This document shows, piece by piece, positions 7,667 through 35,322 of a stretch of 64,000 nt of DNA. Numbering within the stretch: position 1 is the stretch's first letter; each line of letters opens with the position of its first letter. The notes beneath the pieces were generated by a model. It had not been told where the DNA came from, searched no databases, and saw only the letters and a list, made by a program, of their open reading frames with translations. The DNA is from Thozetella sp. PMI_491 (Eukaryota; Ascomycota; Sordariomycetes; Chaetosphaeriales; Chaetosphaeriaceae), in contig MU270024.1 in the NCBI GenBank assembly GCA_021432635.1, positions 310,001 through 374,000 on the forward strand, written 5' to 3'. The translations under genes were made by a program, and so were the position numbers.

Positions 7667-7674
7667 TCACGTGA
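7667..7674. promoter_or_regulatory. Palindromic E-box TCACGTGA
   Basis: Perfect TCACGTGA about 130 bp upstream of the oxidoreductase ATG. CACGTG is the classic bHLH site, and SREBP-type proteins can bind E-boxes as well as sterol elements. Control by the neighbouring bHLH genes is inference only. Confidence 0.35.
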
Positions 7675-7804
7675 AAATGGCTTCATCTAGAAGCCTTGGC
7701 AACACCTAGACCTTCCTCGCTGCCGTCTTTGTTTTCTATGCCAATTTCCACCAAAGATCGATGCTGAATGCCACAAACACCGTCAGCCATATATAGTTTA
7801 AACT

Positions 7805-9196
7805 ATGACGGACAAGACGGGTAGGCACATTGTGGTCATAGGTTTGTATTCCCTCTGGAGACAAGAAATCGGGTTCCTAAGGCGTTGGCTGATCGTATTC
7901 GGCTCTTCTCCAGGAGGCGGCGTCATCGGCTGCTGTACAGCTTACTATCTCACAAAACACCACAATTTTGATGCTAACACCGACACGATCACGCTCCTCG
8001 AGTCCGGTCGCATTGCCGGAGGTGCTTCCGGTAAGGCTGGCGGCCTCCTTGCTCAGTGGGCGTACCCGGCGAGCCTGGTGCCGCTGAGCTTCGACCTACA
8101 CGCCTCCCTTGCCGAGGAGCACGACGGTGCCGCTGCCTGGGGCTATCGGCTCATCCGATGCGGCAAGGTTACGGCGCGAGACCCCCGCTGCCAGCAGCCG
8201 CCGGCGCCGCCGCAGTGGGGAGAGAGCATGGTCTCATGGGCGACACGCCAGCTGAGCCCCTGGGTGCTGCTCGGGAAGCGGCGCGAGGTGGAGAAAGACC
8301 CAGGCAGCATGGTAGTTTCTGAAGAAGAGGCTCGTCTACCGAAAGACCTGGACTGGTTCCGTCAGCAAGATGTCGAGAAGTACGAAGACATCGCGCCCGC
8401 GAGCGCTACGGCGCAGGTGCAGCCAGCGTTGTTTACATCGGCGATGGCCCGGTTGGCCGAAGAAGGCGGTGCTAAGATCCTAATAGACTCCCCTGTCGAG
8501 GGACTTGAGTATGCTCTAGCCAATAATGACTCTGGAGGGGAGAAGAAGAAGGTGCGAGCGGTTCGCTACGTCGATAAGGCGACCGCGCAGGCAGCGACCA
8601 TCCCTGCCGACATCGTTGTACTCGCTGCCGGCCCGTGGACGCCGACTCTGTTTCCACACGTGCCCATGTCCAGCCTTCGGGCACACAGCGTGACCATCCG
8701 GCCCTCGCGGCCGCTCTCTGGCTACTGTCTCTTCACCGAGATTACGGTCCCGGCCCGGAAGGAAGGGGTCGGGGAAGAAGGGGAAGCTTTGGCAACACGG
8801 GTCGTCTGTCCGGAGGTCTACTCCCGCCCCAACAACGAGGTGTACATAGCCGGCGAGGGCGATACACGCGTATCGCTCCCGGCGAATACGGATGAAGTGG
8901 AGGTCGACAGGGAAAGCTGCCAGCTGATCGTGGACGTCGTGCGGGGCATCTCGGACGAGCTGCAGCACGGATTGGTAACGAGCCGGCGGGCTTGCTATTT
9001 GCCCATCGTGGATACACCTTCCGGGGCACCTTTGATAGGGCGTACATGGATTGAAGGCCTGATAATTGCGACGGGGCACGGCTGTTGGGGCATCCACAAT
9101 GCCCCCGCGACAGGGAAGCTGGTCAGCGAGCTGATCTTCGACGGGCACGCACAGAGCGCAGACATCAGCGCATTGGACCCGGAGCTGGCATTATAG
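7805..9196 (+). CDS. FAD-dependent oxidoreductase, FOXRED1/Tda3-like (DAO family)
   Basis: Exons 7805-7841 and 7914-9196 give a protein of about 439 aa. Splicing out 7842-7913 (GTTTGT donor, CTGATC-like branch, TCCAG) joins IVVIG to GGVIGCCTAYYL and builds the N-terminal GxGxxG dinucleotide fold. The intron is 72 nt and open, so an unspliced frame also exists. SGKAGGLLAQWAYP and the C-terminal LIIATGHGCWGIHNAP are typical of the D-amino-acid-oxidase-like family that includes yeast Tda3 and human FOXRED1. The substrate is not known; Tda3 has been linked to endosome-to-Golgi traffic. The gene converges on SCAP with about 150 bp between stop codons. A decayed copy of residues from about 140 onward lies at 21130-21990. 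Confidence 0.85.
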   Translation: MTDKTGRHIVVIGLYSLWRQEIGFLRRWLIVFGSSPGGGVIGCCTAYYLTKHHNFDANTDTITLLESGRIAGGASGKAGGLLAQWAYPASLVPLSFDLHASLAEEHDGAAAWGYRLIRCGKVTARDPRCQQPPAPPQWGESMVSWATRQLSPWVLLGKRREVEKDPGSMVVSEEEARLPKDLDWFRQQDVEKYEDIAPASATAQVQPALFTSAMARLAEEGGAKILIDSPVEGLEYALANNDSGGEKKKVRAVRYVDKATAQAATIPADIVVLAAGPWTPTLFPHVPMSSLRAHSVTIRPSRPLSGYCLFTEITVPARKEGVGEEGEALATRVVCPEVYSRPNNEVYIAGEGDTRVSLPANTDEVEVDRESCQLIVDVVRGISDELQHGLVTSRRACYLPIVDTPSGAPLIGRTWIEGLIIATGHGCWGIHNAPATGKLVSELIFDGHAQSADISALDPELAL

Positions 9197-9345
9197 TCTC
9201 CGGAGAGCGCCTCGCCAGTTCTACTCTATTCGGCATCGCTTGGCTGTAAATTTCCCCAGCCGCCATAGCATTATCAAAACGTCCCTTGCACAAAAAACTA
9301 CCTACCTACCCAGGCTGAAAAGAACATAACTGCTCCGCAGTGGTT

Positions 9346-12300
9346 TCATGGGCGTCTGAGCCGGCCAATCTGGCTGTTCTGCCTCGACAGTCTCCCGTGC
9401 GATGGCTTGTTGGCCAAGCCCTCCTCCTCGTCCTCCGCATATATCCGATCCCCGAATCGAACCAGGACAATAAGGTCTGCCAAGCCGATTGCCACCGCAT
9501 TGCGGGCTAACTTGCACGCCGGCCCTGTCCTGGGTGTAACTAAGCTAGCCGTCAGGCTCTGCCTGTTCGTGATGCCCTTGGCCGTCATTGTCCATGCCTC
9601 CCACCCTTCACGTGAGATCCTCTGGGTGCTGTTGCGCCGGTGGAGCATCTTGTCTATATCTGATCCAGCTGACTGCTTGCTGGATTTACTCTTCCTGAGT
9701 CCGGCGACAGCGTTGGCTCCCGACGCTTCCCAGACGCCTGGGTCCGGCAAAACGTGCGTCACCTCCCTTCCCGGAGTGAAGGTGCTGCATCGCCTCTCGC
9801 GCACGTCTCGTTCGGAGCGGAGGCAGATCATGCCGGTGTGGTACCGGCGGTCGTTCTCGGCACTCATAGTTCGCATGACGAACGGACCGCTCTGGTCTGT
9901 GTATGCGACGGAGAAGGAGGTCACCGCTGTCGAGCCACAGTGGACACAGTTCTGTGGCGGAGAGTGCAGCGCGCGCAGGGTCTGGAACTGGATCGAACAG
10001 CCCCGGAACGAGTGAATCGGTTGTCCTAGGCCGAATGAGTCAAGAGAATCGACGAGCTCTTCCGAGGGCCAGGTGAAACCTACCAGTGATGATGTCTACC
10101 ACATGCACACTCTCTTCATCGTATCGCAAGCACACACCTCGCAGAGCAGGCACCAATGCGATCCGCGACGACTTGACAGGGCCAGCTACGGGGGCCCCTA
10201 TCTGCATGCGTCGAGTGAACCACTGCCCCTCTCGGCGAGCTGAGAGGAAGAGCTGGCCGCCCTCGGCAATGGCGATGAGCTGCGTTGATGTACGGGGCTT
10301 GGACACGACATGTGCCGACACGACCCGGCCGTCACAAATCTGTGTCGTGACGACCTTGGCTGTCTCTATGTTCCGGTCTATCAAGACGCCGTCCTCCAGC
10401 ACCAGCAGGAGATGGGTCGACGGGCCATGCAGAGGATCCTGGCTAGTCATCCGAGCGAACAAACACGAGGCGAGGCGGCCACCCGCGCTCATGGATAGAC
10501 ATACACGAGACTGTTCTCGGCTCCAGACTACCACTTGCCCACCGTGGGTGCACATGGCAAGCCATTTAGCCCCGCTGTCCATGGAAGCTGCGCTGATGGG
10601 CCAGATGAACCCGTCCGAGGGATCGCACATGATGCGCTGGCTGCTGACAGTCTGCGAGTCAAGATCCCAGAGCACGACCCTGCGGTCGAAGCCAATCGAA
10701 ACTAGGAACGGTCTTGGGCCAGATGCAAGGCGAAAGACATCGAGGACGTGCGCCTGTGGGAGGAAAGAGGCGTACGAGATGTTGGCCTGCCCCACAGCAG
10801 CATCGCCTTCAGAGGGGAAGTCGAGCAGCGCATCGCGCGACATTAAACGCACGCTGACAAGGCTGGACAATGCGGCAACTCCTATCCAGAGGTACAAATT
10901 GAAACTAGCATCAATCCCAAGTGGTAGTGGGGGCTTTTCAGCTGCGGACACAGGCATGACATAGACAAGGGGATGGATGTGTACCGAGAATATCGAGAGC
11001 CGTCCGACGACACCTACCAGATCCTGGATGGCGAACCCGTCTCCTGGCAGGGGCCAGCCTATAGTATTCATGGAACGACTTGTATCGTCGGAGTCCGAGA
11101 CCACCACTGCCTGCAGTAAGCCAATAATTTCCTTGAGGGAGCGCCCCCGGAAGTTAGCAAGCACCTCGATCCCAGGAAAATGCCATGCAATAAAGCCCAG
11201 ATGGCCGGCCAGCAGAAGAATTTCCACCATATATTGTACCATCCAAGAACGGCATCTCCTTCTGTAAGTGCCGACTGCTTCGCCACGGGCGTGTGGATAC
11301 GTTCTGGTAATGGTATGTAGGCTATCAAGATGTGCCTGACCAGAGAGAAGCGATGTGTTTTGTATCGTGAAGGGGCAGAAGAAGGCGAGGTAGAAGAGAA
11401 GGCTGGACAGAAACGAGAGGATCGTGAATTTACAGTAGTGTGCGAGCCCGGAGGAGGCGATCTTCGAAAGGAGCAGGACGAGGAGGACTTGTTGGGAGGT
11501 CATCGACAGCGTTCTCAATCGAACCTGCCGAATGGCTCGGGAAAGTTGGAGCGAGGTGGTCAGATCCCGTGATGATCGGTCAATGGTATCGAGGAAGTAA
11601 AGACTAACGTTTGAGTTTTAGCTCTTATAGCGGCGGAAAGATCTCGATCGGAGGAAGAGAAGGAAACGAAGAGTGTCAAGCTACCTTAAAGCTAAACCAT
11701 GGATGCTTGCAGGTAGCGGATAGGCCAACGGCGGCACGTTTTCGACATTGGCGTGCGCGAGCCGGGCCAGCGCAAGAGCGCAGACGACGGGGCCGGTCAG
11801 CTAGGGACGAGTTAATGCTTGAGGCACCAGCGGTGTGCCAGAAAAGCTTGAACCTGGGGCATTCTGTTCGGGTATTGGAGACGTACCTGAATGAGGACAG
11901 CTCCGAGCTGGGCCCATCGGCTTCTCAGGGAGCGAGCTGATCGTGTATACCACGCCGCGCAGATGATCTCGACGATGTAGATGACGCAGAACACCACGAC
12001 GTCGGCAGTCGTCTGGGGAACGACGTGGATGACTGCCGTCTGGCAGGACGAACAATCATGGTCTACATCGCTTATCATCCAATCGCTGTGCTCCCGGCCT
12101 AGCGATGCTATGTTGGCCTCCCACAATGCACCGACCTTTGAAGTAGACAGCGAGACAATGGTCAAAATCGAGGCATTCGCGAGAGTTCCATGAGCGTGCA
12201 TCGCGGATGTGTGTAAAGATACATGGGCTTCGGGACGGGGAAGGAAGCTAACGGCTGAGGTGGAATGGGAGGAGATTGTCTCCGACTCGGTAACGGACAC

Positions 12301-12940
12301 GCCGGGCGTAGGAAGGAGAGGGTGGACGGCGGCGGTGGTGTCGTGAAGTGGTACGTCTATCTTGCCACGGAGATCCGCGGCCGGGACATCGGCCGCGCTG
12401 ATGCCTGTAAGTAGATGACCCGGGACAGATCTCGACATGGCTTCGACTTCAGGCGGTATGTCATTGCTTGTGTCTAAGATCCAGGCTTGTCTCACGTCAA
12501 GGTCCAGTGAATGCTTGGTAGCATGCGGAGTCCAGTCAACCGAGGTCCATGTCGCCGGTGAAAGTGTTCCAGGCCCCGGGCGGCGCTGCCGCTGAGGTGT
12601 AGACGTCGTTGATATCGTGAGCGCAACGAAGATGATGCCGATCGTCCAGAGAGTTAGCCTAGTCAACGAAGAGAGGCGATGCGTCCACCGCCTGTGTGCG
12701 ACCGACGCAACAGGATCGTGCTGTACGTGACCAACTCCTTGTCAGCAAGTCCGCTATCGTTGCGGCTCACACACGCGCAAAGGACAGGAGATGATCGGTA
12801 AGACAAGGAAGGCATGCGAACCTGAGGGTCTTTCAATTCAGGCATCGTAACCAGCTTTGGATGACCTGGAGATGCTAACCCGGGCGAGAACTGCCACTGC
12901 AGGCAAAGATCGCTGCGACCGAAGAGATCCGCCCGGCCAT
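9346..12940 (-). CDS. scp1: SREBP cleavage-activating protein (SCAP) homologue
   Basis: Escort and sensor that carries SREBP between ER and Golgi. Six minus-strand exons join in frame: 12940-12880, 12821-12775, 12720-11887, 11800-11685, 11603-10084, 10025-9346 (3258 nt, about 1085 aa, close to S. pombe Scp1). Order: a first membrane segment near residue 58 (LTLWTIGIIFVALTI); a luminal loop of about 200 aa; a sterol-sensing-like bundle around 275-460; two further membrane segments; then WD40-type repeats from about 640 (VLDVFRLASG, GFDRRVVLWDL). The last exon carries the conserved LHSPPQNCVHCGSTAVTSFS segment. A MELADL-like cargo motif and the conserved Asp ending the sensing domain are not obvious, so sterol sensing may be altered. 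The N-terminal two exons are least certain. A decayed fragment lies at 22010-22265. Confidence 0.8.
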
Positions 12941-13481
12941 TTGGTCCAGCTCTCTCCACCTAGTGCTGCATGATTTGATTTCGTGACCCGTTTCCAATAA
13001 CCCTTGCTCCGTACGAGCAACCCTAACCCTCCCATCGTCGTATTATCTGTCTCTGGCCTTGGTGCGTTGCGGTAAAGGATGCAATGCCATGCTGAGCAGG
13101 GCTAGGGATACGATTGCTGAAGTGCCGAGTTTCGAGTTCTCGGAAAAGCTTGGGAAGTGGGTGTAGTATTATATGACTTTTCGCCGCGCTCATGTGATGG
13201 TGTAGTGGGCCGAAGATGAGACCACGGACTGGCCGAGTCACCCTACTTCCATTAGCTTCAGCCGGGTTCGGCTCGGTACAGTGTGTCTCAACGCCACAGC
13301 TCATAGCGCCCCCTTGGCCCGGGGAAAAGTCCTTAACTGTGCTGTATAGAATCCAAAAAAATTAGTCGAGGTAAGAAATGATGATTAAACAGCATTATTC
13401 CACCCACTCGATCGTTAATGAGACATGAGACTCAGCACACAGATCCACCAAACTAGGACGGCTGGCACAGGAAGCTGGAAG
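12941..13481. other. Intergenic between SCAP and SREBP
   Basis: Contains the SCAP promoter and the region downstream of SREBP. It includes a sterol-element-like site (13237-13246) and a short CCCTAACCCT run at 13021 that is too short to be an interstitial telomere. Confidence 0.5.
13237..13246 (+). promoter_or_regulatory. Candidate sterol regulatory element upstream of SCAP
   Basis: GTCACCCTAC followed by T fits the published fungal SREBP consensus RTCABSCCACY at 10 of 11 positions. It sits about 300 bp upstream of the predicted SCAP ATG. Chance occurrence is possible; feedback control of SCAP by SREBP is inference. Confidence 0.3.
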
Positions 13482-16358
13482 CTAGGCGGCTAATGCTTCC
13501 GATGGACGTCCGAGTTCTGCAAGCCCATGAGGCCCAGTCTTCTCAGAATCATCCACAGGCTGCCCTTCTTGTATGCCAACCAACCACTGGAGCACGTTCA
13601 ACGAGAGGGAGGCCACATTCTCCTCTGCCTCCTGGCTCAGCCGACCGAGCCCCTCCGTCTGCTCTCCCTCCCGCCGACTCCAGACCCTTAGCAGCCCTGC
13701 CACCTGTTCGTACAGATCCTTCTGTCCGCCCGCCCGCTTCTTCTGTCGAAATGAATCATCCAAGAACCGATACAGCGCTGCTAACCCGAGCAGCCCTAGC
13801 TTCTGGTCCGCCGTGTCCCCAGTAAGGCCCCGGATCTCTGCCCCCAGGGCTCGGCACGCCATCTCCTCCCGGTCTCTTTCCGTTTGGGCCGCGGCAATGG
13901 CGCTCCGTAGTGCGACATTCAAGTCTATGCGCAGGCACGGCCACCAGATCAACCGATGCGAATCCCCCTGTCGCTGCTTTTCACCTGCAACACTCATGTC
14001 GGAAATGGCAGACCACAGTCCCTGCGGCCGAGACAGGATGAGGGCCCGGAAAGCCCGCGCGAGGCTCAGCGGACGGTTATCGCCGGGCAGCAGCAGAGCA
14101 TGCACTACGAACGCGGTAGCCCATGTTGCGGAATAAGGCGGCGCCGTGCATATGGCGAGGGTCAGATCCGATCCGACATCACTGGCCGACTCGGGCTCGA
14201 GCGTCCGGAATAGTGTGTCGCGCAGGGCTATCCCCGCATGCCAGGCAGCCAGCGCATCCAACGGCGACAGCACGCGATAGTCCTCGGCTACCGTGTCTAG
14301 CCAAGGGGCAAGGTTGTCGACGTCGGGACTTCCCGGTATGCCCGTCTGGGCTGTGCTCGGGAAGGCTAAAGCAGCTACACGTCGGACTGCTTCGTCGCTA
14401 AAGGCGTCGTCCGCGCTGAGAGAGAGCAAGACGGAGAGATGCGCCGGAAGCGTCGTGTCGGTGGCTTCTGCGCCCAATGCTACTGCCACATCCCTCGTCG
14501 CCTTGTGGTCGAGACGTGCGCGCTGCCACCACCGATGGGACATCTTGATGAGGAAGTAAGCAGCCCAGCGATGGGCCGTCCTGGCTGCCACGACCTGCGC
14601 GTGCAGTGACCGAAGCATCAGCCGGTATGGCGTCGCTGGTAGCGCAAGGCTCGCCAGGAGGGTGAGCACCAGCCGAGCGCTGCTGATCTTCGTATCGCCG
14701 CCAGTGAGTTGCGCGTCGATCGCGATATCCCATGCTCTCTTGGCGACATCTGCAGGCTTCGTCTCGGATCCCTGTGGCCCCTCCAGCTGCCAGCCGAATC
14801 CGCGGAAAAGATCGGCTCCAAGGTTTAGCAAGAGGATCCGCATGCTAGCCCACGCGATGGTGGCAGTAAGGGACAAGCCATTCTCCGGAATCTCAATGGT
14901 CCGCGTAGCCGTGATGAAGGCGGACCGACGGATGTCTCTGATGCCAGCAGACGTTAACGGCGCCGGGGCAGCCTTGGGGGCGGCAGGCGGGCGCGTCAGC
15001 GCACGGAAAACAGCAGGCAGAAATATATACAGCGCAGCAAGGAGGAGCATGAAGCTCTTGAACAAAGCAACCCCATTGCTAAGGGATGGTGAGCCGCCGA
15101 TGCTCGCAGAAATATGCTGGAAGGGCTGAGTCAGTCGGGTGAGTAAGTGGACGGGGATTGAGAATAGGCCTCGCCCCGAGGTCGTCTCGTTGCTCTGCTG
15201 CTCTGTGTGCATGCCCTGCATGGCTAGCATCCCGGCGAGGCCGCCGACCATGAGCTTGCTCGCCGCGCCGCCGCCGCCAGAGCTGCGTCCAGGCATCATG
15301 AGCTCGCGGTTTAGTTTGCCGAGTGCCAGAACCTGCTTTCCGAGGAGCTCTTTCTGCTCTGTTAGCTTTTCATTGCATGCCTGCAGATCTCGGATGTACT
15401 GCGTCGCACCCGCCAGCACCCGGGTTTTCGTAGCCAACCCGGCCTGGTTGCGCGTTTTCTCCTTCTTCAGGTGCGGGATGGCATCCTGCAGAGCGGCGAA
15501 CATATCTGTCAATCGGTCCCGGTAACGCTTCTCCACGATGTTGTGCGCCTGCTGCTTTGATCGCGTCGGCCCGAACCCCTCCGGCCCGTCGTCCTGCCCG
15601 GCATGCTTCCGCTTTTTTCTCGCATCATCTCGCCCCGCGGTGCTTCCCTCTTCCGGGGAACTGCCCAGTGGCTGTAGCACAATCGAAGGGTCACTGCGGC
15701 CACCCCAGACTTGGTCTGATGGTGATTCGGCAATGCTCGGGAGGCGAGTCTCTAATAAAGGAGGGGAGAGGCTCGAGGAATCGACGGGGAGTGTTGATGG
15801 GAGCGAGATCGAGAGCGAGGTTGATGGTGCTGCGAAGAGGGGTTGCTTTGCCGGAGAATCATCAGACCACAAAATTGAGAAATCGAACAATGGGTCAGCG
15901 ACCGCTGGGCCGGGCTGCTGCTTGGTCCCTCCGGTGTTTGTAGCCGCCTCAACGAATCCAGCCTTCCCAATTTCTACATCCTGCTCTATCCAATCCTGCC
16001 ACTGGTCCCAGTCACTTGGCGCTGTCCGCCATCTGCTACTGATCTCATTCTCCGGCGGATGGGCGGATGGGGAACCGGACGAGTAGACGGTACCTGGGGT
16101 TTGCTCCAAGGCATTCACAGCGCTGCTGTCGGGCCACGAGCTGCTAGCCGCGCTACTCGACTGGCGCGACGAGCGAAAAAAGAAGAGCGAGTCCAGCAAC
16201 GACTCGTTTATACCGAGTAGTGCATCCTATGGTTCCGACATGAGAACTATCCATTCCATTCTTCGGGATGTCGCGAGAACTGCTCGGCAGCCTGGGAGGG
16301 GAGTACGCACTAGATCATCCAGCGCCGTCAATTCGGCATCCGCTGTGGTGGCATCCAT
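13482..16358 (-). CDS. sre1: Sterol regulatory element-binding protein (SREBP, SrbA/Sre1 family)
   Basis: Membrane-tethered bHLH-leucine-zipper activator that, once released by proteolysis, drives sterol and low-oxygen genes. Exons 16358-16311 and 16226-13482 give about 930 aa. The 84-nt intron (GTGCGT to CATAG) joins TALDDL to DALLGINESLL in frame and supplies the ATG that the long frame lacks. A Ser/Pro-rich acidic N-terminus is followed by the bHLH near residues 240-300 (HNIVEKRYRDRL) with the SREBP-specific Tyr. Two membrane segments follow: near 405 (FKSFMLLLAALYIFLPAVF) and near 470 (TIAWASMRILLLNLGADLF). The large C-terminal half matches the fungal SREBP C-terminal domain (DUF2014-like). 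It lies head-to-tail upstream of SCAP, its expected partner. A decayed fragment is at 22325-22645. Confidence 0.9.
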
Positions 16359-17502
16359 ATAAAATCCCTGTGAGATGTCGGAATCGGAGCGTGGTCCGGA
16401 CTGCGTACACTTCGCTACTGTAATAGCTAGGGCAGCGGCTACTGCTCCTCTATGCTTCGACCCGAGCGACTCGGTTTGCTCGGCGAAACTTCGTCTTACC
16501 AGTCGCTGTGTTTGCGGGGGGGGGCAGCTGAAGATATTTCTCTATGGTCACCGCAGGGGTGAACATAACCGGGCGTTAACGGAGTTCTCGGCATTGAAGC
16601 GTTCATCACCCCGGGCCGGGGGCATAAGGGGGAATAGGGTTGGGGCCGGTGGGGGCGAAGTTTTTTTTTTTCTTTTTATGTTTTTACCCTCTGTAGATTT
16701 TACGTGGTCCTATGCGAGTACAGTAAGGGAAGCAGGACCTAATTACCCGTACTCTGCGCTATACAGCAAGCCCTTTGCTGTTGACCAACTCGCTTTTTAA
16801 TTGCAATCATTCTGGAGCTCTGGCGGGGTTTCTGCCCGATTGATTCGTGCTGTGCGATCGTCACCACCCATCCATCCCACGGAAGTCCAATTTTTTTCCT
16901 TGTTTTTTTCTTTATTATTAGTTTTTTTATCCTCCGTAGATTGTATAAGTTACGGAGAGCCCCGTACGCTATTCTAGCCGCCATCTGTTTGGAACAATTG
17001 CATCAGTTTCGATTGCATCCATGTCGGCGGATGGTGCCGCTGCTATCCAACTTGAGGGTAGTATGCCTGGATGGTGAGAAACATCGATTCTACACTGGCT
17101 GAAATGACGCCCTGGTGATCCTGGGACAGACACTTATGCCAATAAATCCCATTGGTTGGAGCCCCTCCATCTTGGTGTTCACAGTGTTCTAGACTGGTCT
17201 CCTCACATGTGATATGGATCCACAACACGCAGCTGTCCCCGGCCAGGACCCTCAATCGACGCCACTGATGCACTGATGGACCCACTCTTGGCTCTTGATC
17301 GATGTCATCGCAAGTAGATGCTCTCCGTAAGCTCTGCTCATTGGTCTAGCACACGCAAATCGATGCTATACACCATTTCGGAAGTACCATAAATATCATG
17401 ATGTATGAGTCGTAGCCAATAATTATCTCAAACGGAATGAAAAATTAACTAAGCTTCTTCCTCTGTCTTCAGCCCAATTCCGCCCATGGCGGCAACCAAA
17501 CA
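16359..17502. other. SREBP upstream region
   Basis: No gene supported. A weak sterol-element-like ATCACCCCGG lies at 16605-16614, about 250 bp upstream of the SREBP ATG. T-rich runs lie at 16660-16680 and 16890-16930, as often seen in fungal promoters. Confidence 0.45.
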
Positions 17503-18240
17503 ATGAGCTCACATACTATGGAACAATCGCCGTGGTCCTCGTCAGAAGACCTCTTCGAGTCGTTTATCGCACTTGGTTCTTTCGCGGCTGCAAACGATCT
17601 GAACCGGGACGATACATTCCCAACGAGCAGCTGTGCGACCGCAGAGGACTTATTTTGCCGCGATGGCATTGACGAATCCTACTATATTGACGACGGCGAT
17701 AACGAGGACGACGGCAGCGACGAGGATAACGGCTTTATGCTCCCAAGCCCGATCCCTGATACGCCCACGGGTAACGATTTTGAAGGGAACATATCGATAA
17801 GATCCTCCCCGTCGCCGCACCACCAGAACCGGCACGTAACCAAAGAAAACGTGCCTTGCATCTCACAAACTCCAGGTTGTGTTCTGGAGTCCACACCACG
17901 AACTTGAGGAAGAAAAAAAGACCAATGGCCAGCTCTATGGCCAAAAGAGCCGAGCCGACTTCTCCCTCAAGCGGCAACCCAGGCTCCCCAAGAGATGAGG
18001 TGGAGCTCCTCCGTCGCCATAGTCACAAAAACGTCGAGAAGCGGTACTGCAACAGGCTGAATATCGAGTTCGATCAGCTTTTGGTGTTTATGCTTAGCGC
18101 CGACGGCTAGAGCTGCAATCGTAAAACTGGAGTTAATCTGGCCAAGGGAGGAGTGCTGGCCATGGCACATCAGCGCATTAAAGATCTCGAGTAGCAACAG
18201 AAAACGCTTAAAGAGCATACCGCGATGATGAGTAATTTTA
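17503..18240 (+). pseudogene. Decayed SREBP-type bHLH gene (copy of the gene at 25341)
   Basis: The opening frame (ATG at 17503) aligns with the intact protein at 25341-26090: an acidic N-terminus, DGIDESYYIDDGD against DGIAESLYYDDDD, and a proline/serine segment. The frame shifts near 17900. In the new frame the DNA-binding region reads RRHSHKNVEKRYCNRL, where the near-invariant Arg after Tyr is Cys. A stop follows at about 18107. Beyond it, MAHQRIKDLE and an in-frame TAG correspond to the second helix of the intact gene. At least three disabling changes make a functional product unlikely. Protein-level identity is modest, so the duplication is not recent. It occupies the slot beside SREBP that the intact bHLH occupies beside the decayed copy. 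Confidence 0.75.
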
Positions 18241-20119
18241 TTTTCTATTGTGATTTTTGAAAGCCTTTTGGGCGGAAATGACATGATTAATTTTCCACGA
18301 TTAGGGTGGCTTGATTTGGGTGGCTTAGCTTGCGATATCCTGAAGCGTTTTCCTTCGAGATGAGGCAGGGGTTAGGAGGGGGGCTGGTGGGGGGAAGGTC
18401 CATGGTCAGGGACGAACCAGTGGGACTAACTCTCCCTTCATGATTATAATGAGTGTATGCCAAGAAAGGGAATACCAGCTCGCGATTGCCGGCCTGGTTG
18501 ACATAAGGCAAGGTCGCGGACGGATATTTGCAGTAATTGGTCCAATGCTAAACTTGTTAAGCTTAAACGTGTCTTCATGTCTGATATCGGCCCTAGTTGT
18601 TGAGTGGAGTTGCTATGTACCAAATTATGTTATTCCTCCCACATATACCACTCTAGATGGGATTGGGCTTCAGACCACATGCTAGGTAAGTTCAAACAAC
18701 AATATAGCATGAGCAGCGCATACGATAATTGTGGCGCTAGAGATTAGGGATCCAGATAATCTAGGTGGTAAACATAATAAAAAGTAAAATTAGAAAAAGA
18801 ATAGCGAAGAAAGAAGAGTCCAGGCAAGCGATCAGGTACGAAGGATTCCGGCATGGAAATGCAGTTCGTAGCTATGAATAATATATCTAGCTCGTAGTAT
18901 ATACCTAAATGATGCAACTGTGGCGAAACACACCTTATAACGGCTATGTATCGCTGAGGTTTCGGCTGTAACACTACCTATATACCTGAGATATGTATCC
19001 TAGTCAAGTTCTTGTTCAACTGCAGCTGTCTTACGCCACCTCAAGTTATATAGAGAGTCCATACAACGAAGCCTGTGTAATCTACTTAGCCAATATTCAC
19101 TTATTCACAGAGACAATCACATTCTCTTCGGGGAAAAAGTATTGTCCTTATGCTTCGTAAGTACTAGTTCTGCCTCCTTCGCTTCTCTCGCTGACTAGAT
19201 CTGTAGCACGAGTTGGAGATGTTGAGAGTGAAACGAAGGGACCGGATTGTATCAGGACAGCCTAAGACTGCGTGATATTTACAAGGTTTTTTATGAATGA
19301 CTATTAGGCTCTTGGGCTCGGTCAAGGAAATCTTCCCTCCGACTTTGTCTTCAAGCTGCCATCAGGATTGATCACGTCGAACCGCGATGGCTCAAGGTTT
19401 TGAAGGGCTAGCTAACCACGGTGCCCGGTCTGGCACTTAACAAGAACCAGACGGCGTCAGCCCAAGTGCTTCATTTGGTCATGAATATTGTTGATTGATG
19501 TGTTTAAATTCGGTCGACAGACGGACGCCTACTAATGAACCCTAGCTAACTCACCACGGAGGAAGATCTACGAATTCGGTGTGAATACTAGATAAGGATA
19601 ATGTTGATCCTCACAAAGCTCCAGCGCTCTTTCATATGGCAAAATACGTAGATCTACTGCCATTTCCAATATTGCCAGTAATGCTTCTGAGCAGAGAGTG
19701 CACTCACGATCATTGAAGCCGTTTACTAGAGCAGGGAACCTTTAGGAAATGTCCTGCCAGTTAGTACTGATTGAGTTAAAGCTACCCCTTTAGGTTAGAT
19801 AATATGGGGTTCTCGCTTACGCACGGGTGCGTGATTCCCGTTGGCTGCTACACTCACAACGTGCTGCAAAGGTGGTGTGATACGTAAGGGGCGCCGGAGT
19901 ACTACATGCCCACTAAAATACTTAGTCAAAAGGGGAAGGATGCCACCTTCATGCAATCATAAGCAGAGAGTGAGGCGCCAGGACGTCCTCTAGGTTAGCC
20001 GGATGCAACAATGCGGAAGAGCCCAAACAATGCGGCACTAACCATTATCTAGGAAGCATATACAAAAACGCCACGCCGTTCCTTGGTCTTCTATCCGAAT
20101 ACAAGGAGTATCACAAACC
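18241..20119. other. Intergenic, no supported gene
   Basis: Nothing recognisable on either strand apart from AT-rich stretches (18760-18990). It separates the bHLH pseudogene from the phosphatase-subunit gene. Confidence 0.5.
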
Positions 20120-21124
20120 ATGACTGAACAGCACTCATCGCCGGAAACGGGAGGAATGCTACAGGAGATGGTGCGGCGGAAGTCCGGTGAGATCGTGTGG
20201 CCGGTACTTCGCACATCGAGCCACCATTCGAGGAGCAGTGCGTCGGCGTCGGCCAAATTCGTGCATTTCAACGATTCCCAGCTGGAACAAGTGCGGCATT
20301 TTTTCCGGGAAGACCAGCCTCGGTTCATCAGTTCGTCTATACCGGGTTCCAATCCTGCGGACGAGATCCAGGTGGAGCGCGGAGAAGCTCCGGAGCCACC
20401 TTCGCCCCCGCTGCCGCTTGTAAATGATCTCACCATCCAACTACTCAATTTTCCCTTGGAGACGGCCGCCCGGAGGAAGCAACCAGTACGTCTACTGAGG
20501 ACATGGCTGTCTCGAGATTACAGCCTGTTGTATGGGTCTGTCGGAGTCGCCAATACGGGAGAGAACAAGCGTGTCGTCTGCAGGTTTAGCTTTGACAACT
20601 GGGAGACGACAGACGAGGCAGAAGCTTTCTACAACGTGACCAGGCTGTCAGGCGGGTACGAATGCTTTGTTTTCAGTGTCGATCTGGCCGAGGTGGTCGA
20701 CATCATGTCCAAGGTCATACGTTTTTGTATTCGATACACTGTGCATGGCACCGACTTTTGGGACAACAATGACGGTTCCAATTTTGAAGCATGTTTTTTA
20801 AGAAGCAGCCTACTTCAAAAACGAACGCCACCCTCATCGATATACCGGCCTCCAAGGATCGCTCACGGACGACGCCTGGCTTTGAGGGGGAGAAGCCCCG
20901 TGGAATATGATACAACTGACCGGAAGATAGAAACTTCAGGGTCTGACACAGATGAGAACAAGGCAAAGTATAAAGCCTGCCGGCTGTCTCACTGTTCCGA
21001 AGAACGTATCGGAATCGATACCTACGTAAATTGCCCATCCATCCCCTTTAAAGGCGGGAAGAGCCTTTTCTCGTACCAGTGCCATGTAACTCCATCACTG
21101 TATGATGCAGTAGCAAGCAGGTAA
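20120..21124 (+). CDS. PP1 glycogen-targeting regulatory subunit (CBM21 domain)
   Basis: Targets protein phosphatase 1 to glycogen, favouring glycogen synthase activation (Gac1/PIG/PPP1R3 family). A single 334-aa exon with an ATG at 20120. Near residues 47-51 is the PP1-docking RVxF-type motif (KFVHF), followed by the conserved LEQVRHFFRED. A CBM21 domain spans roughly 124-220: GSVGVANTGENKRVVCRFSF, DNWETTDEAEAFY and FWDNNDGSNFE, the last being the carbohydrate-contact loop. The tail is basic and degenerate. Fungal relatives I know of are usually longer, and the stop is only a few bases before the start of the decayed oxidoreductase copy at 21130. The C-terminus may therefore have been truncated or replaced at the duplication junction. 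Confidence 0.8.
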   Translation: MTEQHSSPETGGMLQEMVRRKSGEIVWPVLRTSSHHSRSSASASAKFVHFNDSQLEQVRHFFREDQPRFISSSIPGSNPADEIQVERGEAPEPPSPPLPLVNDLTIQLLNFPLETAARRKQPVRLLRTWLSRDYSLLYGSVGVANTGENKRVVCRFSFDNWETTDEAEAFYNVTRLSGGYECFVFSVDLAEVVDIMSKVIRFCIRYTVHGTDFWDNNDGSNFEACFLRSSLLQKRTPPSSIYRPPRIAHGRRLALRGRSPVEYDTTDRKIETSGSDTDENKAKYKACRLSHCSEERIGIDTYVNCPSIPFKGGKSLFSYQCHVTPSLYDAVASR

Positions 21125-21129
21125 TTTAT

Positions 21130-21990
21130 TGGGCTACACGCTAGATTAGCCTATGGGTGCTGCTTGGGAAGCAGCGCGAGGTGAATAAAGTCCTGGAAAT
21201 ATGGTAGCCTCTGAGGAAGAGGCTTGCTTGCTAGGAGACCTAGACTAGTTCTGCCACTGAGACGTCGAGAAGTATGAGGACATTGCGCCGGCTAGCGCTA
21301 CAGCTTAGGTGCAGCCGGCGCTGTTTACTGTAGTGATAGCACGGCTGGCTGAAGAATGTGGCGCTAAGGCCTTGGCTGACTCTCCTGTGGAGGGTTTTGA
21401 GTATGAAATTATTGACCTGTTCTGTGGCGAAAAGAAGAGAGTTTGGGCAGTATGACATATTAATAAGACGACTGTGCTAGCAGTGACTACCACTACTGAC
21501 TTTGTCGTACTTGCTGCTGGCCTATGGACGCTAACTCTGTTTCCTCACGAGCCTATGTATAGCCTTCCGGTACATAGCGTGGCTATCCTTGCGACTGCTG
21601 CCCAGCTATTTTCTTTTACCTAGATCATGGTTCTGTTTGGTAAGGAAGGGGAAGTATTAGTGACATGAGTTGTCTGTCTAGAGGTCTACTTATGCCGTAA
21701 CAACGAGGTGTATATTGCCAGTAAGAGTGACACCTGAGTGCCTATACCAGCGGGTACAGCTGGGGTAGAGGTTAATAGGGACTGCTACCAGTTAATTTTG
21801 ATACGGTTTGTGGCATCTCGGACAAGCTCCAGCCAGCATCAGTGACAGGTCAGCGTGCATACTATCCTCTGACTGTGGACACACTATCAGTGGCGCCTTT
21901 GATAGAGTCCACATGGATTAACGGCCTAATCCTGGCTACAGGACCGGTTGCTGTGGCATCCATAATGGTCCCGCCACAGGTAAACAGTAT
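21130..21990 (+). pseudogene. Decayed copy of the FOXRED1/Tda3-like oxidoreductase
   Basis: Nucleotide alignment by eye to 8230-9110 is clear and collinear: GGGTGCTGCTTGGGAAGCAG matches GGGTGCTGCTCGGGAAGCGG, GAGAAGTATGAGGACATTGC matches GAGAAGTACGAAGACATCGC, and ATGGATTAACGGCCTAAT matches the region before the C-terminal FAD motif. Differences are rich in C-to-T and G-to-A changes. Stops arise from CAG to TAG (around 21305) and TGG to TAG (around 21246), and several indels are present. The 5' third of the gene is missing. It is followed without a gap by SCAP- and SREBP-derived pieces in parental order. Confidence 0.85.
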
Positions 21991-22009
21991 ATACAGGCCG
22001 GTGACGCCA

Positions 22010-22265
22010 GACAGTGCGGCAACTCCTCACCAAAGGTACGGATAAGACTTTTTAATAGTCTCGAATAGTAAAATCAGTTCCTCGGCGGATGCAGGCATAA
22101 CATAGAGCGGAGGATGGATATCCGCCAAGAATATCGGGAGCTGTCCGATGATGCGTATCAGATCGTGGAGGGTGGGCCCTCCCGGTGCCAAGCGCCAGCC
22201 TGTATTCGCCGGACTGTGAGTAGATCTCGAGTCAGGGCCTATCAGCGCATGCACCAAGTCCATGG
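22010..22265 (-). pseudogene. Decayed fragment of SCAP
   Basis: The minus frame reads HDLIRIIGQLPIFLADIHPP then LYVMPASAEE. It aligns with QDLVGVVGRLSIFSVHIHPL then VYVMPVSAAE in the intact SCAP (source about 10855-11060). Only this luminal-loop and last-membrane segment remains; WD40 and sterol-sensing parts are deleted. Orientation relative to the neighbouring fragments is the same as in the intact block. Confidence 0.8.
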
Positions 22266-22324
22266 TTTCATCGACAGGGCACTTATTTATATTAACCGCA
22301 CTCTTGACTGTTAGAAAATGCTAC

Positions 22325-22645
22325 GCGACAAAGCGCATGTAGCTGCTCAACAAAATACTATCCACTAGGTACCATATTAACCAGGGACTGGGGTTGTCTC
22401 TAAGGTCCGACTCCTCGTCGCTTTCCGGCCCAGACTCGAGCGTTTGGATAAGCTCATCTCGCAGGGCTACGCGTGCACGATTGGCGGCTAAAGTATCAAG
22501 TGGCGGCTGCACTTGATAGTCCTCGGCTATCGTGTCTAGCCAAGGTGCAAGTTTGCTAACGTTTGGAACCCATTCCCGGCTGCGCAGAAATTTGGGAGGC
22601 CAGCGTACTTACATATTGGACCACTTCGTCGCCAAAAACTCTATA
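22325..22645 (-). pseudogene. Decayed fragment of SREBP C-terminal domain
   Basis: The minus frame PLDTLAANRARVALRDELIQ then TLESGPESDEESDL aligns with PLDALAAWHAGIALRDTLFR then TLEPESASDVGSDL of the intact SREBP (source about 14150-14400). Nucleotide identity continues through the TAGTCCTCGGCTA..GTGTCTAGCC stretch and CTTCGTCGC near 22630. The bHLH and membrane segments are gone. Confidence 0.8.
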
Positions 22646-22999
22646 AGACTTAGATAATGAGCTTCATGGGATATGTTAATGGCACGGTATTTGGTTGTTA
22701 GTTTCCTAGCTATCGTAGAGCTATAGCTACAGCAGCACTTTTAAAACTGAGCGTTTCTTACTTTTCTTTGACTTTTTCATCTAAATTGAACAAACCTCGT
22801 GATCACTTCCAATCCTGAATCGCATCATGTGTTTCATTGCACTTGATAGCTCCTTGGTGGCGGTTTAAGCGGATATAGGAGCGATAATGGGGAGGCCGCG
22901 TTAGAAAAGCTCTGCCGCTGAAACGGCAAGCATATAAGGTGACATTCTACAGCCACTCTCTTGATAGTTACTTGTACTTATGCCCAAGTCAACGACCGC
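22646..22999. other. Intergenic after the decayed block
   Basis: No gene or further match to the intact block that I can see. Confidence 0.5.
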
Positions 23000-23779
23000 T
23001 CACATCGCGCCACAGATGTCCCTAGGATAGCTTTCCGCAAGCATGGTGGAGGAGAAGGCGCGATTACTATATAGTTCTTCCAATGCTATATCCTCTACGT
23101 AACATACTTGAGCCTCAGCGGTGTCAAGAAACTCCTCCTTGAGGCAACCCCGTGGGGATGGCTTAGCAACTATGGTATTCGGAACCTCGTGGCGGTTAGG
23201 TTCGCCCATGTAAAGGCTTGTACGCCGCATATCGTTCACGAGGGTCTCGACCTCTGCTTCGGAAACTCGTTCGGCGGAAGCACGCTGTTCTTCGTCCCTG
23301 CTGCACATCGTAAAGCACCTTTCCGATTGCAAGTTGATGTCTGTGCTGAGTAGTGCACCAGTCGCACGGGTTTGTTCTCTTCTTTCGGTCGTATCATTAG
23401 ATGAGGGTCTGGGCGGGCCATCCAACAATTCTGTTGGGCTAGCTGGAGCGCAGCGGCTGTCAGAGCCGGAGTCTGGGCCAGATTCGGAGTCTGAGTCGGA
23501 GTCGGTGTCTGAGTCGGAGCTCGAGTCAGAATTTGATTCGTCCTCGTAGTCTCGTCTTCGATGGGATTCGCAAAGGAAGCTCGAGTAGCAGGCCCCCAAC
23601 GGCCAGGGCCTCCATGTTTTATCCTCCTCTAATACCGAATCAATGATGCTAGCGTGTCCGACCATGCGGCGCAAATTTGGTGAAGCAACGCCTGCCTCGC
23701 GTGTGAGTCGATGCCAGGCAAGCGAGGCAAAGTATCTCTTAGACAGGCGAGATATTGCTGGGTTAATTTCTGAAGCCAT
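23000..23779 (-). CDS. Conserved fungal protein with acidic Ser/Asp repeat, unknown function
   Basis: A 259-aa frame from the ATG at 23779 (an upstream ATG pair at 23920 would add 47 unconvincing residues). The N-terminus LAWHRLTREAGVASPNLRRM then VGHASIIDSV resembles a conserved segment of fungal hypothetical proteins (PNLR.LVGHAN.LD). A low-complexity Ser/Asp/Glu tract follows around residues 85-115 (SDSSSDSDTDSDSDSESG), then a poorly conserved tail. The function is unknown. It lies between the decayed SREBP fragment and the intact bHLH gene, with no counterpart in the first copy of the block, so it either inserted later or was lost there. Confidence 0.55.
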   Translation of the reverse strand: MASEINPAISRLSKRYFASLAWHRLTREAGVASPNLRRMVGHASIIDSVLEEDKTWRPWPLGACYSSFLCESHRRRDYEDESNSDSSSDSDTDSDSDSESGPDSGSDSRCAPASPTELLDGPPRPSSNDTTERREQTRATGALLSTDINLQSERCFTMCSRDEEQRASAERVSEAEVETLVNDMRRTSLYMGEPNRHEVPNTIVAKPSPRGCLKEEFLDTAEAQVCYVEDIALEELYSNRAFSSTMLAESYPRDICGAM

Positions 23780-25340
23780 TGCGGAGGTAGACACGAGTGA
23801 CAAGTCAGTGTGCCTACCGAGATGATGGATGAATATAAAACTGTTTTGTAATAGATTGATACGTAAAATTGCACTGATAATCCTATGTGGACTGCAGTGG
23901 CGGAAACTTATAGTCATCAAACTGTTACCCCAGATTTAACCATGGAAAGCCAAAGGCAGTGCAAACTCTGCTTGGCTATCAGGCTGCAAACATGTGATGC
24001 TACTAGGGTCCGCTAGTGCTGAAGCACGTTCCCTGTAGGTCTCATACCGTCACGTTATTTGTTACCAGGCTACTTTGGTGGCTAGAAGGCTCGGTGGGCT
24101 GATTAGACTTAAATACTTCACACGAAAATTCCCTAAGCATTTTCCATCAAATTTGCGCGGGTTCGAGACGCACCCAGCCCTAAGAACCAGCTCGTATAAA
24201 TAACATGGGGAAGCATGGGATAATCTGAGCTCGGATATCCGTTTGCAATTCCTCAAATGGGTTTTAACCCCCTCGCTCGGCCTGCTGTCAGCTTGGCATG
24301 ACGATAGGCGATGAGGATATCTTGGTCGTCCTGCCTCGGCTGTCAGTGAAGACTGCTAAGCAGCCGCTAGTGGACCGTCTGACCCGACTATACGGAACCA
24401 AGAAACGGGGTTGCAGTCACTCTGGGTGGGTGCAGATTCCCGATATACTCGGCTACCACATTGTCATGTAGCTACCCTGAAGACATGGGATAGAATCTAT
24501 CCAAATAGTCCGAAGCACGAGAGAGGGGAGACCGACTCTTCCCCATGCTCCTCCTGGCAGCGATTGTAGTTGCTTGTGCTTCACATGTAGATTGCTAACG
24601 AGAGGGATAGGCAGAGTCATGGCCAGGCAAGTCGAAGACGGGACCGATGCAAGTGGCGGCGACCTCCTCCAATATCATCGCATCGTAGCACGAACCGAGT
24701 TTTCTCGGACCACCTGACGCGGGGTAGTCCTTGTTTGGATTGTCCCCTCGCTGATTCGTCGGAAAATATTCGTAGTGTGGCATGATGTGGAGGCGAGGTT
24801 CTATAGTCTGGGCCTGGGTACTCTATCACGCCACGGAACGGCCAGTAAAGTTCGCCATCTGCGGAGAAGAAAGTTTTCCCTAACGGCCAAAGTGACGCAG
24901 GTGCTTGCTGATCCGGCCACTGCCGATCGCTCGGGATCTATGACATTGGCCCGAGCCCCGCCATCGGGCAGTCGCGGGTCTAGACCGTTCCATGAATCTC
25001 CTCATCGCGCCACCTTGCCTACGCCGCTAATTGGCCAGAATCTTGCACACTCTCATTGGTCAATTGCATGCCCCTGCACTTTGTGTCGTCACCTAGGTAG
25101 TTTATCGATGGCTTAAAGGGGTGATAAATAACCCCCCCCCCCCACCTGGTTGAGAACTCGCGACGATGTCATCATAAGCACGCCTTGCTCACTGTTGCAC
25201 AAAGAGCTCAGAACCGAATCCTAGTGTAGGACCCCTGATACCATACTGTATGTGTGCTGGCTTGAGTTACTCCGACCGACTCCGTGTTGACTCGACGTCC
25301 TTAGTCCCCAGCCCACCTTAAACTCCTTCGGCAGACAACA
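23780..25340. other. Upstream region of the intact bHLH gene
   Basis: No gene supported. A tRNA-like GGGTTCGAGAC at about 24160 lacks a proper cloverleaf. A C-run lies at 25132-25144, about 200 bp upstream of the bHLH ATG. Confidence 0.5.
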
Positions 25341-26090
25341 ATGAGCTTAAGTGCTACGAAGCAGTCGCTCTGGCTCTTGTCGGAGGACTACTCGGCCATG
25401 TTGACAACGCCAAGTTTCTTTGCGCTATCCGATGATCTGACCCAGAACGAGGGGTTCGGAACGGGCAGCTTCGTCGTCGCGGATGAGCTCCTTCCTTTCG
25501 ACGGCATCGCGGAGTCGCTCTACTACGATGATGACGACGACTTCAGGCTGCAAAGTTCCAGTTCCGACGGCGTTAGCGACAGCAGCTCTGAGTATCCCGA
25601 TCTCTTCGATACATCTACGGGACCCATCCGGGAGAGCCTCCCAGCGGCAACCCCAGCAGAGCCTGCGCCTAGCCCAAAAAAGCGAGTCTCAGAGCACGTG
25701 AGATATAAGCGCCGCTCCAATGTCGATGCCACCCGCGCGAGGAAAAGAACTAAGGTCACGCCTAAACCTGCCGCCGTACGTGACGAGCCTGATTCTCATT
25801 CTAGCAGCGAGTCTGGTTCCCCTCAAGTTGGAGCGGCGCTCCGTCGCCACAGTCACAACCACGTCGAGAAACAATACCGGAACCGGCTAAAATGGGAGTT
25901 TGAGCAGCTCCTAGCCCTCTTGCCCGATTCAAACGAGAGCCACAACGCGGATGATCGAGCTGGAGGCAGCCCAACCAAGGCAATGGTGCTCATTATGGCA
26001 CGACAGCGTATCCGAGAGCTCGAGGAGCAGCTGAGAACGTCCCAGGATCGAATCACAATGATGAATAGTTTCGGTTCGTCTTCAATCTGA
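25341..26090 (+). CDS. Short SREBP-type bHLH transcription factor without membrane anchor
   Basis: A 249-aa single-exon protein, ATG at 25341. Residues 1-75 are acidic (YYDDDDDF) and probably activating. A Ser/Pro linker and a basic stretch (RARKRTKV) lead to the bHLH near 170-240: HSHNHVEKQYRNRL, with the Tyr typical of SREBP-type bHLHs, a proline-ended first helix (FEQLLALLP), a long loop, and KAMVLIMARQRIRELEEQL. There is no hydrophobic segment, so it would be constitutively soluble and nuclear, like SrbB-type factors that act with SREBP. It lies on the same side of the decayed SREBP fragment as the bHLH pseudogene does of the intact SREBP. Dimerisation with SREBP is inference. Confidence 0.8.
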   Translation: MSLSATKQSLWLLSEDYSAMLTTPSFFALSDDLTQNEGFGTGSFVVADELLPFDGIAESLYYDDDDDFRLQSSSSDGVSDSSSEYPDLFDTSTGPIRESLPAATPAEPAPSPKKRVSEHVRYKRRSNVDATRARKRTKVTPKPAAVRDEPDSHSSSESGSPQVGAALRRHSHNHVEKQYRNRLKWEFEQLLALLPDSNESHNADDRAGGSPTKAMVLIMARQRIRELEEQLRTSQDRITMMNSFGSSSI

Positions 26091-27787
26091 TTTAAATCAC
26101 ATACGACTTGGTTCATGCGGGAAACTGGGGGTTTGTACGCCCGAGTATAGTTTAACCAGGTTGCGGATGTACCTGCGCGTGTCCATGGCATATACTGAAA
26201 ACTCTTTTGGGGGGTGGGGGTTTTCCCGGGCTTATAGGCATTCTCTAGGGTCGTGGTTGGATACCATGACAAGTCTGTGCCGAGAAACGTGACCTCGCCT
26301 CGCGCTTATCGGCATCGGTGAACGAGTGAGACGAGAAGGATCAAGGAAGGGGTTTATGCAGTATTGGACAAGATGTATAATTATGGATATCAAATGTCCT
26401 CCTTAAGTGTCCCGATGGCTTTTAGTGGATCCGTGGTACTATCCGAAGTTTCCGCTAATAAACTGCCATTCGCGAGCGCGTTCCTAGATTTGCCCTGGAT
26501 TTGGCCGTGATCTGACTTTGAATATGATTTTTATGCAGGTTTGAGTGCACGGGGCGGGAGCGAGAAATATTGAAGACGTGGCGCTCTAAAGGTAAATTAA
26601 CCTTTGCGGCTATGGTTACTTAAAGCTTTCCAGCCGAGTTTGTAGACAGAACACGATTGTATGGCCATAGAATACAGGAGAGCGTGATATGCGCGACTGG
26701 AAGCTCTCGGCTATGATCGAAGATCGATGCAAACGATCTTTCTCACGCAGGGTCTGAAACTGGCACAGGCACATTCCAGTGTTCATTGCAAAGCACGAGC
26801 AGACACTGGGACAGATCTAGTAGTTATAAAACTTTGCGTCTTCGAGGCCGAATTACCACGAGATGGTTTCAACCATTCTTAGGGGTTATTACACCGGCCA
26901 AGAAAAGCAGATGTCTCTCTGAGAGGCAGCGACTCGAACGAAACCATCGACCAGATGGGGAAGGTCCTGCAGAAGCGGCAGGAAAAAGGTATGGCGGACA
27001 ATATTCGGGCCACACTCGTATTCTCTGACCGAAAATCTAGACACAACGAGCTGGAGAACTGAACAAGCACCTCCGTGAAGACGCAGGGGCAAGCGAAGAG
27101 GCCGATGAGGGCGGTGGCATGGCTTAAATTCCTGGCCGTTTATGCTGAGTTCATCTTTCGATCGGGTTCTGATTCAGGGCACATGGAGCTAGAGAAATAT
27201 ATAATAAACGCTTACCTCTGACTGTTATCATTGCAACTATGCAAGCCTGATGGTTGTTCTCTGGATGGTGAAATGAGGGGGGTCCATAGTTGAAACAGGT
27301 GTCGTGGGAAGGGTACCTTGGTACCATTGTTATCTGCGCCCAAGAAGCAAGTTAATTGAGGCAGTCATTGACGTCCTTGAACACGTGACTCATGAACTAC
27401 TCGCTCCTCGGCGCAAGCATGTATTTAGAGGCCTTACCATAAATGGTTTACATAATATCATGTTACAGGATATGGTCCCGTGTTGCCTCCCCAAGGGACT
27501 GAGTGGAACCACAAATCTACCACAGAAGTGCAGTGCGGATGTCACGCCACCGCCACGACGTCATCCAAGTTCCAGGTTGAACGTTATGTTAACTACTAAA
27601 TACATGACTACGACGAGACTACTGAATATACATTAAAGCGTAGCGATACACCTGGTCGTGATAAGCTCATGGCGCGGGCTATCAAATAGCAATTTAAACT
27701 TCCCTAATCATATCCTCAACCAGTATTCCGTCTCAAAGCCAACAGATATTTGAGTTCTCAAGGTAGAAGTTTATACATACCCTTAAT
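26091..27787. other. Intergenic with possible coding debris
   Basis: No gene supported. Around 26940-27125 a frame reads VLQKRQEKGMADNIRATLVF and may be debris of a lost gene, but I recognise no family. Confidence 0.45.
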
Positions 27788-34562: not shown

Positions 34563-34791
34563 TGTTAGAATAGCTGTTCGCAGCGCTGGCGAGCTGTGGA
34601 GGATCTGTAGTATTAGGATCCTATTGATCACGTGGATTCTTCTTATGCGATTAATAGGAGTATATAAAAGCTGTTCCTGAGCTTATTAGCTCTTAGGATG
34701 GATATATAGAAGATAGATACTAATACATGATACGGATTTACATAGTTTGTTTGCTTTATTGCTTTACGAGATCTTGTACGCTTACCAAACA
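34563..34791 (+). mobile_element. Solo LTR, probably Ty1/copia-like
   Basis: A 229-bp element that begins TGTTAGAATAGC and ends CCAAACA (TGTT...AACA ends). A 5-bp direct duplication GTTAG lies on each side (34558-34562 and 34792-34796). A TATA-like AGTATATAAAAGC lies inside. There is no internal region, so it is a fossil left by LTR-LTR recombination. Intact ends and target duplication suggest moderate age. Confidence 0.8.
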
Positions 34792-34813
34792 GTTAGAGTT
34801 TAACCTTGCTTTA

Positions 34814-35320: not shown

Positions 35321-35322
35321 TA

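Follow-up and report, generated by a model that had tools for sequence, protein, structure and literature searches.

A linked second SREBP-SCAP pair in Thozetella sp. PMI_491 probably left by block duplication and complementary decay

The DNA analyzed here is a stretch of 64,000 nucleotides from Thozetella sp. PMI_491 (assembly GCA_021432635.1, contig MU270024.1, positions 310,001 to 374,000; hereafter the window). It contains two adjacent versions of a four-gene cluster encoding, in order, a FAD-dependent oxidoreductase of the DAO family, a SCAP-like protein, an SREBP and an SREBP-type basic helix-loop-helix (bHLH) protein without a membrane part. In window coordinates, copy A lies at 7805-18256 and copy B at 21130-26093. 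For each of the four genes, one copy holds the intact version and the other a broken one, and the intact versions are on different sides. Genome searches covered 72.3 Mb in 157 contigs, and the contig numbers used below are those within this assembly. The presence of HET, Zn2Cys6 and DUF2014 proteins indicates an ascomycete.

Gene models for copy A were derived from the sequence alone, with predicted GT-AG splicing. The oxidoreductase gene (DAO A; 7805..9196, + strand; exons 7805-7841 and 7914-9193 plus the stop codon) is intact and encodes 439 aa, and removal of its 72-nt intron yields a GGGVIG motif. The product matches PF01266 at 132 bits; the NCBIfam models that it hit were of the amino-acid-oxidase type only, all far below their cut-offs, and its PDB matches were glycine oxidases, with weak scores. 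The protein may resemble yeast Tda3. The SCAP-like gene (SCAP A; 9346..12845, - strand; exons 12845-12771, 12720-11887, 11800-11685, 11603-10084 and 10025-9346) is open from ATG to stop, over 1074 aa, once four predicted GT-AG introns of 50, 86, 81 and 58 nt are spliced out. Its hydropathy profile has eight hydrophobic segments in residues 41-593 and one more at 1019-1037, and the protein runs from a membrane-helix array into a WD40 region, alignable along the chain to a SCAP encoded on contig 23. The sterol-sensing regions of the two give a 215-column alignment with a single gap (23% identity, E 2e-19); it spans two of the predicted introns, which supports the splice model. The WD40 parts align over 164 columns (E 6e-9). 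In the PDB, SCAP A had just two matches, both SCAP chains and both weak (E 0.067 and 0.42). We call the protein SCAP-like, a diverged paralogue, because its Pfam Sterol-sensing score of 17.4 bits is under the cut-off of 22.3, whereas the contig-23 SCAP scores 128.6.

The third gene of copy A (SREBP A; 13482..16358, - strand; exons 16358-16311 and 16226-13482, separated by an 84-nt intron) is also intact and encodes a 930-aa SREBP with a bHLH domain (PF00010, 36.9 bits) and a DUF2014 domain (PF09427, 242-244 bits; cut-off 27). Its basic region, EKRYR, has the tyrosine and aligns with that of an SREBP encoded on contig 54. Hydropathy between the bHLH and DUF2014 domains gave one clear segment at residues 408-426; the second expected helix was below threshold. 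Neither SREBP A nor the window bHLH protein had a match in NCBIfam. The last gene of copy A (bHLH A; 17459..18256, + strand) is a pseudogene with a frame change, a TAG codon in the HLH and a further TAG after it; the DNA is 64.6% identical to 25298-26093 in copy B, and 19 of the 25 gaps in this alignment are not a multiple of three. Introns were considered as the cause of all breaks in copy A; they account for those in DAO A, SCAP A and SREBP A, but not for the TAG in the HLH of bHLH A.

Copy B begins with a DAO relic (21130..21983, + strand) that is without the 5' part of the gene. It is 71.7% identical to 8237-9117 and carries 8 stops in 277 in-register codons, and 8 of its 10 alignment gaps are not a multiple of three. 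Adjoining it is a SCAP relic (21984..22337, - strand), the counterpart of 10840-11199, with 65.1% identity and 2 stops in the 110 codons compared. Its DNA-alignable part is 354 nt, and a protein match at 22401-22024 makes an extent to 22401 possible, so copy B retains approximately 354-420 nt of the SCAP gene. The SREBP relic (22403..22636, - strand; 68.8% identical to its counterpart at 14164-14402) may likewise start at 22348, given a protein match at 22566-22348; 234-289 nt are retained, about a tenth of the gene, with no stop in 76 codons. The junction between these two relics falls somewhere in 22338-22403, and the layout therefore implies at least two internal deletions, of approximately 1.7 and 2.9 kb in copy A coordinates. 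A 95-codon open frame (22321-22608, - strand) bridges the junction and fuses a bit of each relic, probably as an accident of deletion. The bHLH gene of copy B (bHLH B; 25341..26090, + strand) is intact and encodes 249 aa with the bHLH toward the C terminus (HLH at residues 168-228; PF00010, 31.8 bits). Its basic region, EKQYR, has the tyrosine common to SREBP A and the contig-54 SREBP, a Pfam search found no membrane domain in it, and it has several relatives in the genome.

The two copies were compared by BLASTN and in six frames (7000-20000 against 20001-27000). BLASTN recovered one series of matches in the same order and orientation: DAO (8237-9117 to 21130-21983), SCAP-like (10866-11063 to 22010-22204, in two pieces), SREBP (14196-14402 to 22435-22636) and bHLH (17499-18206 to 25337-26039, in three pieces). 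The best scores of the four matches were 338, 77, 69 and 57 bits, compared with control maxima of 35.6 bits for 100 dinucleotide-shuffled versions of the B side and 34.6 bits for seven further 7-kb stretches from the window, which overlap in part; the shuffles rule out chance likeness. The original prediction, which had proposed a collinear four-gene duplication with the first three genes intact and the bHLH dead in A and the reverse in B, is borne out on all these points by the collinear series, the three spliced models of A and the three relics of B. Across the whole genome, the best non-self match of the intact protein was the other copy for DAO A, the main exon of SCAP A and bHLH B. When 35 stop-to-stop pieces of copy B were compared with ten fetched stretches, 16 matched something and all 16 matched copy A best; for the SREBP relic, A was the sole match among these stretches.

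The window genes are not the organism's only SREBP-SCAP set. A profile search found two DUF2014 genes in the genome, on contig 54 (598 bits) and in copy A. Three genes matched PF12349, on contigs 38, 23 and 15, and by best PDB matches the contig-23 gene alone was identified here as SCAP; INSIG had one match, on contig 13 (273 bits). These SREBP, SCAP and INSIG genes lie on separate contigs and have higher family scores than the window genes, and SREBP A is 29-32% identical to the contig-54 SREBP. With better-conserved SREBP, SCAP and INSIG genes elsewhere, the pair in the window is a second, diverged, adjacent set. The suggestion that one working set is spread over both half-copies thus stands in that there is one intact version per gene, and fails insofar as it implied the only such set.

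Several estimates suggest that the intact genes have been under selection and that both copies were for some time. In a neutral simulation over the estimated lineage distance, taken from DAO third positions, the mean expected number of stops was approximately 10 for DAO A, 23 for SREBP A, 25 for SCAP A and 6 for bHLH B; none was observed. The ratio of nonsynonymous to synonymous divergence (dN/dS) between the copies, a check that the original prediction had proposed, was computed with stop codons excluded and gave 0.15 (0.10-0.21) for DAO, with dN 0.19 and dS 1.22, 0.29 (0.13-0.55) for SREBP and 0.46 (0.32-0.69) for bHLH. Comparing the DAO dN of 0.19 with half of its dS of 1.22, and taking dS at face value, DAO B would have been unconstrained during no more than about one third of the period after duplication, and so seems to have been constrained for most of it. 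The same upper bound for bHLH A is approximately nine tenths. From these bounds the losses were probably staggered, and the bHLH loss possibly came first.

Other results weigh against a duplication followed by selection on both copies and gene-by-gene decay. The SCAP segment (10840-11199 against 21984-22337) has a dN/dS of 0.91 (0.60-1.38), which indicates no constraint in either copy; its dS of 0.52 is lower than that of the other three genes (0.93-1.22), and we have no firm explanation for this. For SREBP A, the contig-54 SREBP outscores the B relic in the whole-genome search (160 versus 48 bits), with identities of 32% over 569 residues and 60% over 57 aa, respectively. Alignment of the A and B DNA found no clear homology past the genes that would mark the boundaries of the duplication. 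Relative-rate counts with paralogue outgroups are also less decisive than they first appear. A first count favored the intact over the dead copy in DAO (27:10, p 0.008), SCAP (20:5, p 0.004), SREBP (8:2, p 0.11) and bHLH (29:9, p 0.002), but it is biased to the intact copy because the outgroup was aligned to that copy only. A looser control, which admitted chance alignments and was not used, gave seven mixed rows: three favored the intact copy (47:22, 36:27 and 35:25, the first alone significant), one was tied (27:27) and three favored the dead copy (DAO 15:16, SREBP 49:67, SCAP 59:76). In a stricter control, with the outgroup aligned separately to each copy, all eight rows favored the intact copy (11:3, 11:6, 8:4, 7:2, 6:5, 12:8, 10:4 and 12:6), which speaks for the duplication-and-decay history, but no row was significant alone (p 0.057 to 1), and the rows are not independent, two DAO rows being overlapping pieces of one paralogue and four bHLH rows using the same two copies.

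On balance, we consider it highly probable that a block duplication and then complementary decay left a second SREBP-SCAP pair and a bHLH gene here. The direct duplication with complementary decay that was originally put forward remains the best reading, and every piece of B with a match among the fetched loci is closest to A. An ancestral cluster of DAO (+), SCAP-like (-), SREBP (-) and bHLH (+) would have produced a neighboring copy with unchanged orientation, and both copies would have stayed under selection for some time. The bHLH gene of copy A would then have lost its frame, and DAO, SCAP and SREBP of copy B would have been lost through point lesions, frameshifts and the two or more internal deletions, leaving one intact version per gene over 18 kb. 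The intact products would be a second, fast-diverging SREBP-SCAP pair and a soluble SREBP-type bHLH protein. The domain layout of SREBP A would place the protein in the membrane of the endoplasmic reticulum, where its bHLH would face the cytosol and the WD40 part of SCAP A would bind its DUF2014 part; it could be a membrane-tethered factor, held and escorted by SCAP A and released by proteolysis, and the pair would act beside the better-conserved SREBP-SCAP-INSIG set. This scheme is modelled on accounts of Neurospora (PMC5395666), SrbB (PMC4223079) and PdSreB (PMC5415137).

Copy B could instead have been dead on arrival, a truncated partial cluster that landed beside a bHLH gene, with no gene-by-gene loss. 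The DAO match in B begins only five bases past the stop of a neighboring gene, and the relics of B abut one another, as such an event might leave them. If DAO B had been free since the duplication, however, dN should be at least approximately half of dS, against estimates of 0.19 and 1.22 for DAO. The bHLH gene, moreover, belongs to both copies, and in B it is the intact one. We regard this account as unlikely. We are similarly doubtful that the cluster was acquired horizontally from another fungus, whether already duplicated or not: a second, divergent set with adjacent genes, where those of the other set are on separate contigs, would fit such an origin, but the GC content at third codon positions (GC3) of the intact window genes (0.64-0.72) is within the 0.51-0.83 span of 13 gene pieces from elsewhere in the genome. 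An alternative that concerns copy A is that bHLH A is alive as a shorter or differently spliced protein, in which case the loss would be one-sided, in B only. Its N-terminal frame is open for 152 codons and splicing here is predicted, but no normal-sized intron that removes the TAG in the HLH alone is visible by eye, and the frame-breaking gaps against bHLH B are numerous; a living bHLH A therefore also seems improbable.

Inactivation of the duplicated copy by repeat-induced point mutation (RIP) is, in our estimate, slightly less probable again. Changes from DAO A to DAO B are skewed (C-to-T/G-to-A 115 versus 48 in reverse), DAO B has a TpA/ApT of 1.49 and a composite RIP index of 0.36, and the base composition of this DAO relic drifts to AT. 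The second RIP index of DAO B, at 1.13, is not depleted below 1.03, however, the composite index is -0.64 over all of A and -0.21 over all of B, the bHLH pair is less skewed (86 versus 65), and long deletions are not of the RIP type. Both RIP thresholds are passed elsewhere in the window, by 1-kb segments that begin at 33501-35001, 38001 and 39501-42001. With one index moved and the other not, RIP was rejected as the main killer of copy B. Transposon insertion was rejected as well: in a genome search that skipped very common words, the spacer of copy B (22640-25290) and the gap between the copies (18260-20040) matched only themselves.

Under the favored reading of duplication and complementary decay, the reciprocal loss is a real pattern but weaker evidence than it appears, and is not itself proof of compensation. 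Provided that each of four genes has to survive in one copy, the losses are reciprocal in 14 of the 16 possible outcomes and split 3:1 in 8 of the 16. As a reciprocal outcome is expected, and three of the four losses lie in one contiguous stretch of B, no compensation is needed. Complementary loss of genes from two copies of a block after duplication is known as fractionation or reciprocal gene loss. The case described here is alike in the complementary loss and unlike in that the copies are adjacent, linked and small in scale (four genes). Since the copies are linked, the losses should not create segregating incompatibilities or separate populations.

More novel, and less expected, is the linked second SREBP-SCAP pair. 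The available portion of the Neurospora crassa report (PMC5395666) describes one DUF2014 SREBP, one SREBP homologue without DUF2014 and one Scap homologue (sah-2, sre-2 and scp-1), a similar complement to that found here; it names a single SCAP homologue, whereas in Thozetella a second SREBP and a SCAP-like gene are adjacent in a duplicated cluster. Fusarium graminearum also has two SREBPs in one genome, FgSre1 and FgSre2, with HLH, transmembrane and DUF2014 domains, whose deletion left tebuconazole sensitivity unchanged; the accessible text mentions no second SCAP or linkage (PMC6420630). SrbB has the SREBP tyrosine, and PdSreB is a 296-aa protein with a C-terminal bHLH; both lack a transmembrane domain (PMC4223079, PMC5415137). 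bHLH B resembles them in being short, with a C-terminal bHLH that has the tyrosine and no Pfam membrane domain, a likeness in features, and differs in the position of its gene alongside SREBP and SCAP and in having several relatives in the genome. The cited passages give fungi a single SCAP homologue at most (PMC3894159, PMC5395666). No description of a linked second SREBP-SCAP pair, or of its duplication, was found among the search hits listed or in the passages cited above, most subscription papers being outside the literature searched. With a linked pair alongside a conserved one, it could be tested directly whether a sensor in the membrane and its transcription factor are able to duplicate and diverge as a pair, and the two half-copies preserve a record of which parts were under selection and of the order of deaths. 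More tentatively, and with somewhat less than even confidence, the block may be a snapshot of the rearrangement of a linked second module that, with its weakened sterol-sensing domain and its own bHLH and oxidoreductase neighbors, responds to a different signal from the conserved set.

Two further genes in the region were not mentioned in the original prediction. A CBM21 gene (20042..21124, + strand; PF03370, 83 bits) lies between the copies, and its stop is the one five bases before the point where the DAO relic becomes alignable as DNA; it has paralogues on contigs 3, 5, 6, 9 and 14. An unnamed open reading frame (ORF; 23003..23779, - strand), with no Pfam match at E <= 1, lies inside copy B in the interval from the SREBP relic to the bHLH gene. 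Contigs 3, 9 and 14 each carry relatives of this ORF and of the CBM21 gene that are no more than approximately 5 kb apart. On contig 9 (1151882-1166290), a pair of SREBP-type bHLH genes that share a strand is followed by a relative of the ORF and a CBM21 gene, making this a second locus with some of these neighbors. A search for relics of either gene in the flanks of copy A found nothing convincing (best E 0.047), and the two may be fifth and sixth members of the ancestral block that were lost from A. On contig 5 (263241-263732), a CBM21 relative that is 52% identical to the window gene contains five stops and is another decayed duplicate.

Elsewhere in the window, an AT-rich element at 34812-35322 has 43-nt perfect terminal inverted repeats and contains a 17-bp unit in 5.8 copies; it resembles a small inverted-repeat transposable element and lies in a patch that passes the RIP thresholds. 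An 865-codon open frame (38659-41253) has a GC3 of 0.83, a composition unlike that of the other genes and no Pfam match, and it adjoins an AT-rich patch at approximately 41-43 kb that also passes the thresholds. DUF899 and YbjQ_1 are families familiar mainly from bacteria. The window has a DUF899 match at 60856-61497 (203 bits), a bacterial protein according to Pfam, and a YbjQ_1 match at 32631-33197 (45.9 bits); both genes are possible old transfers.

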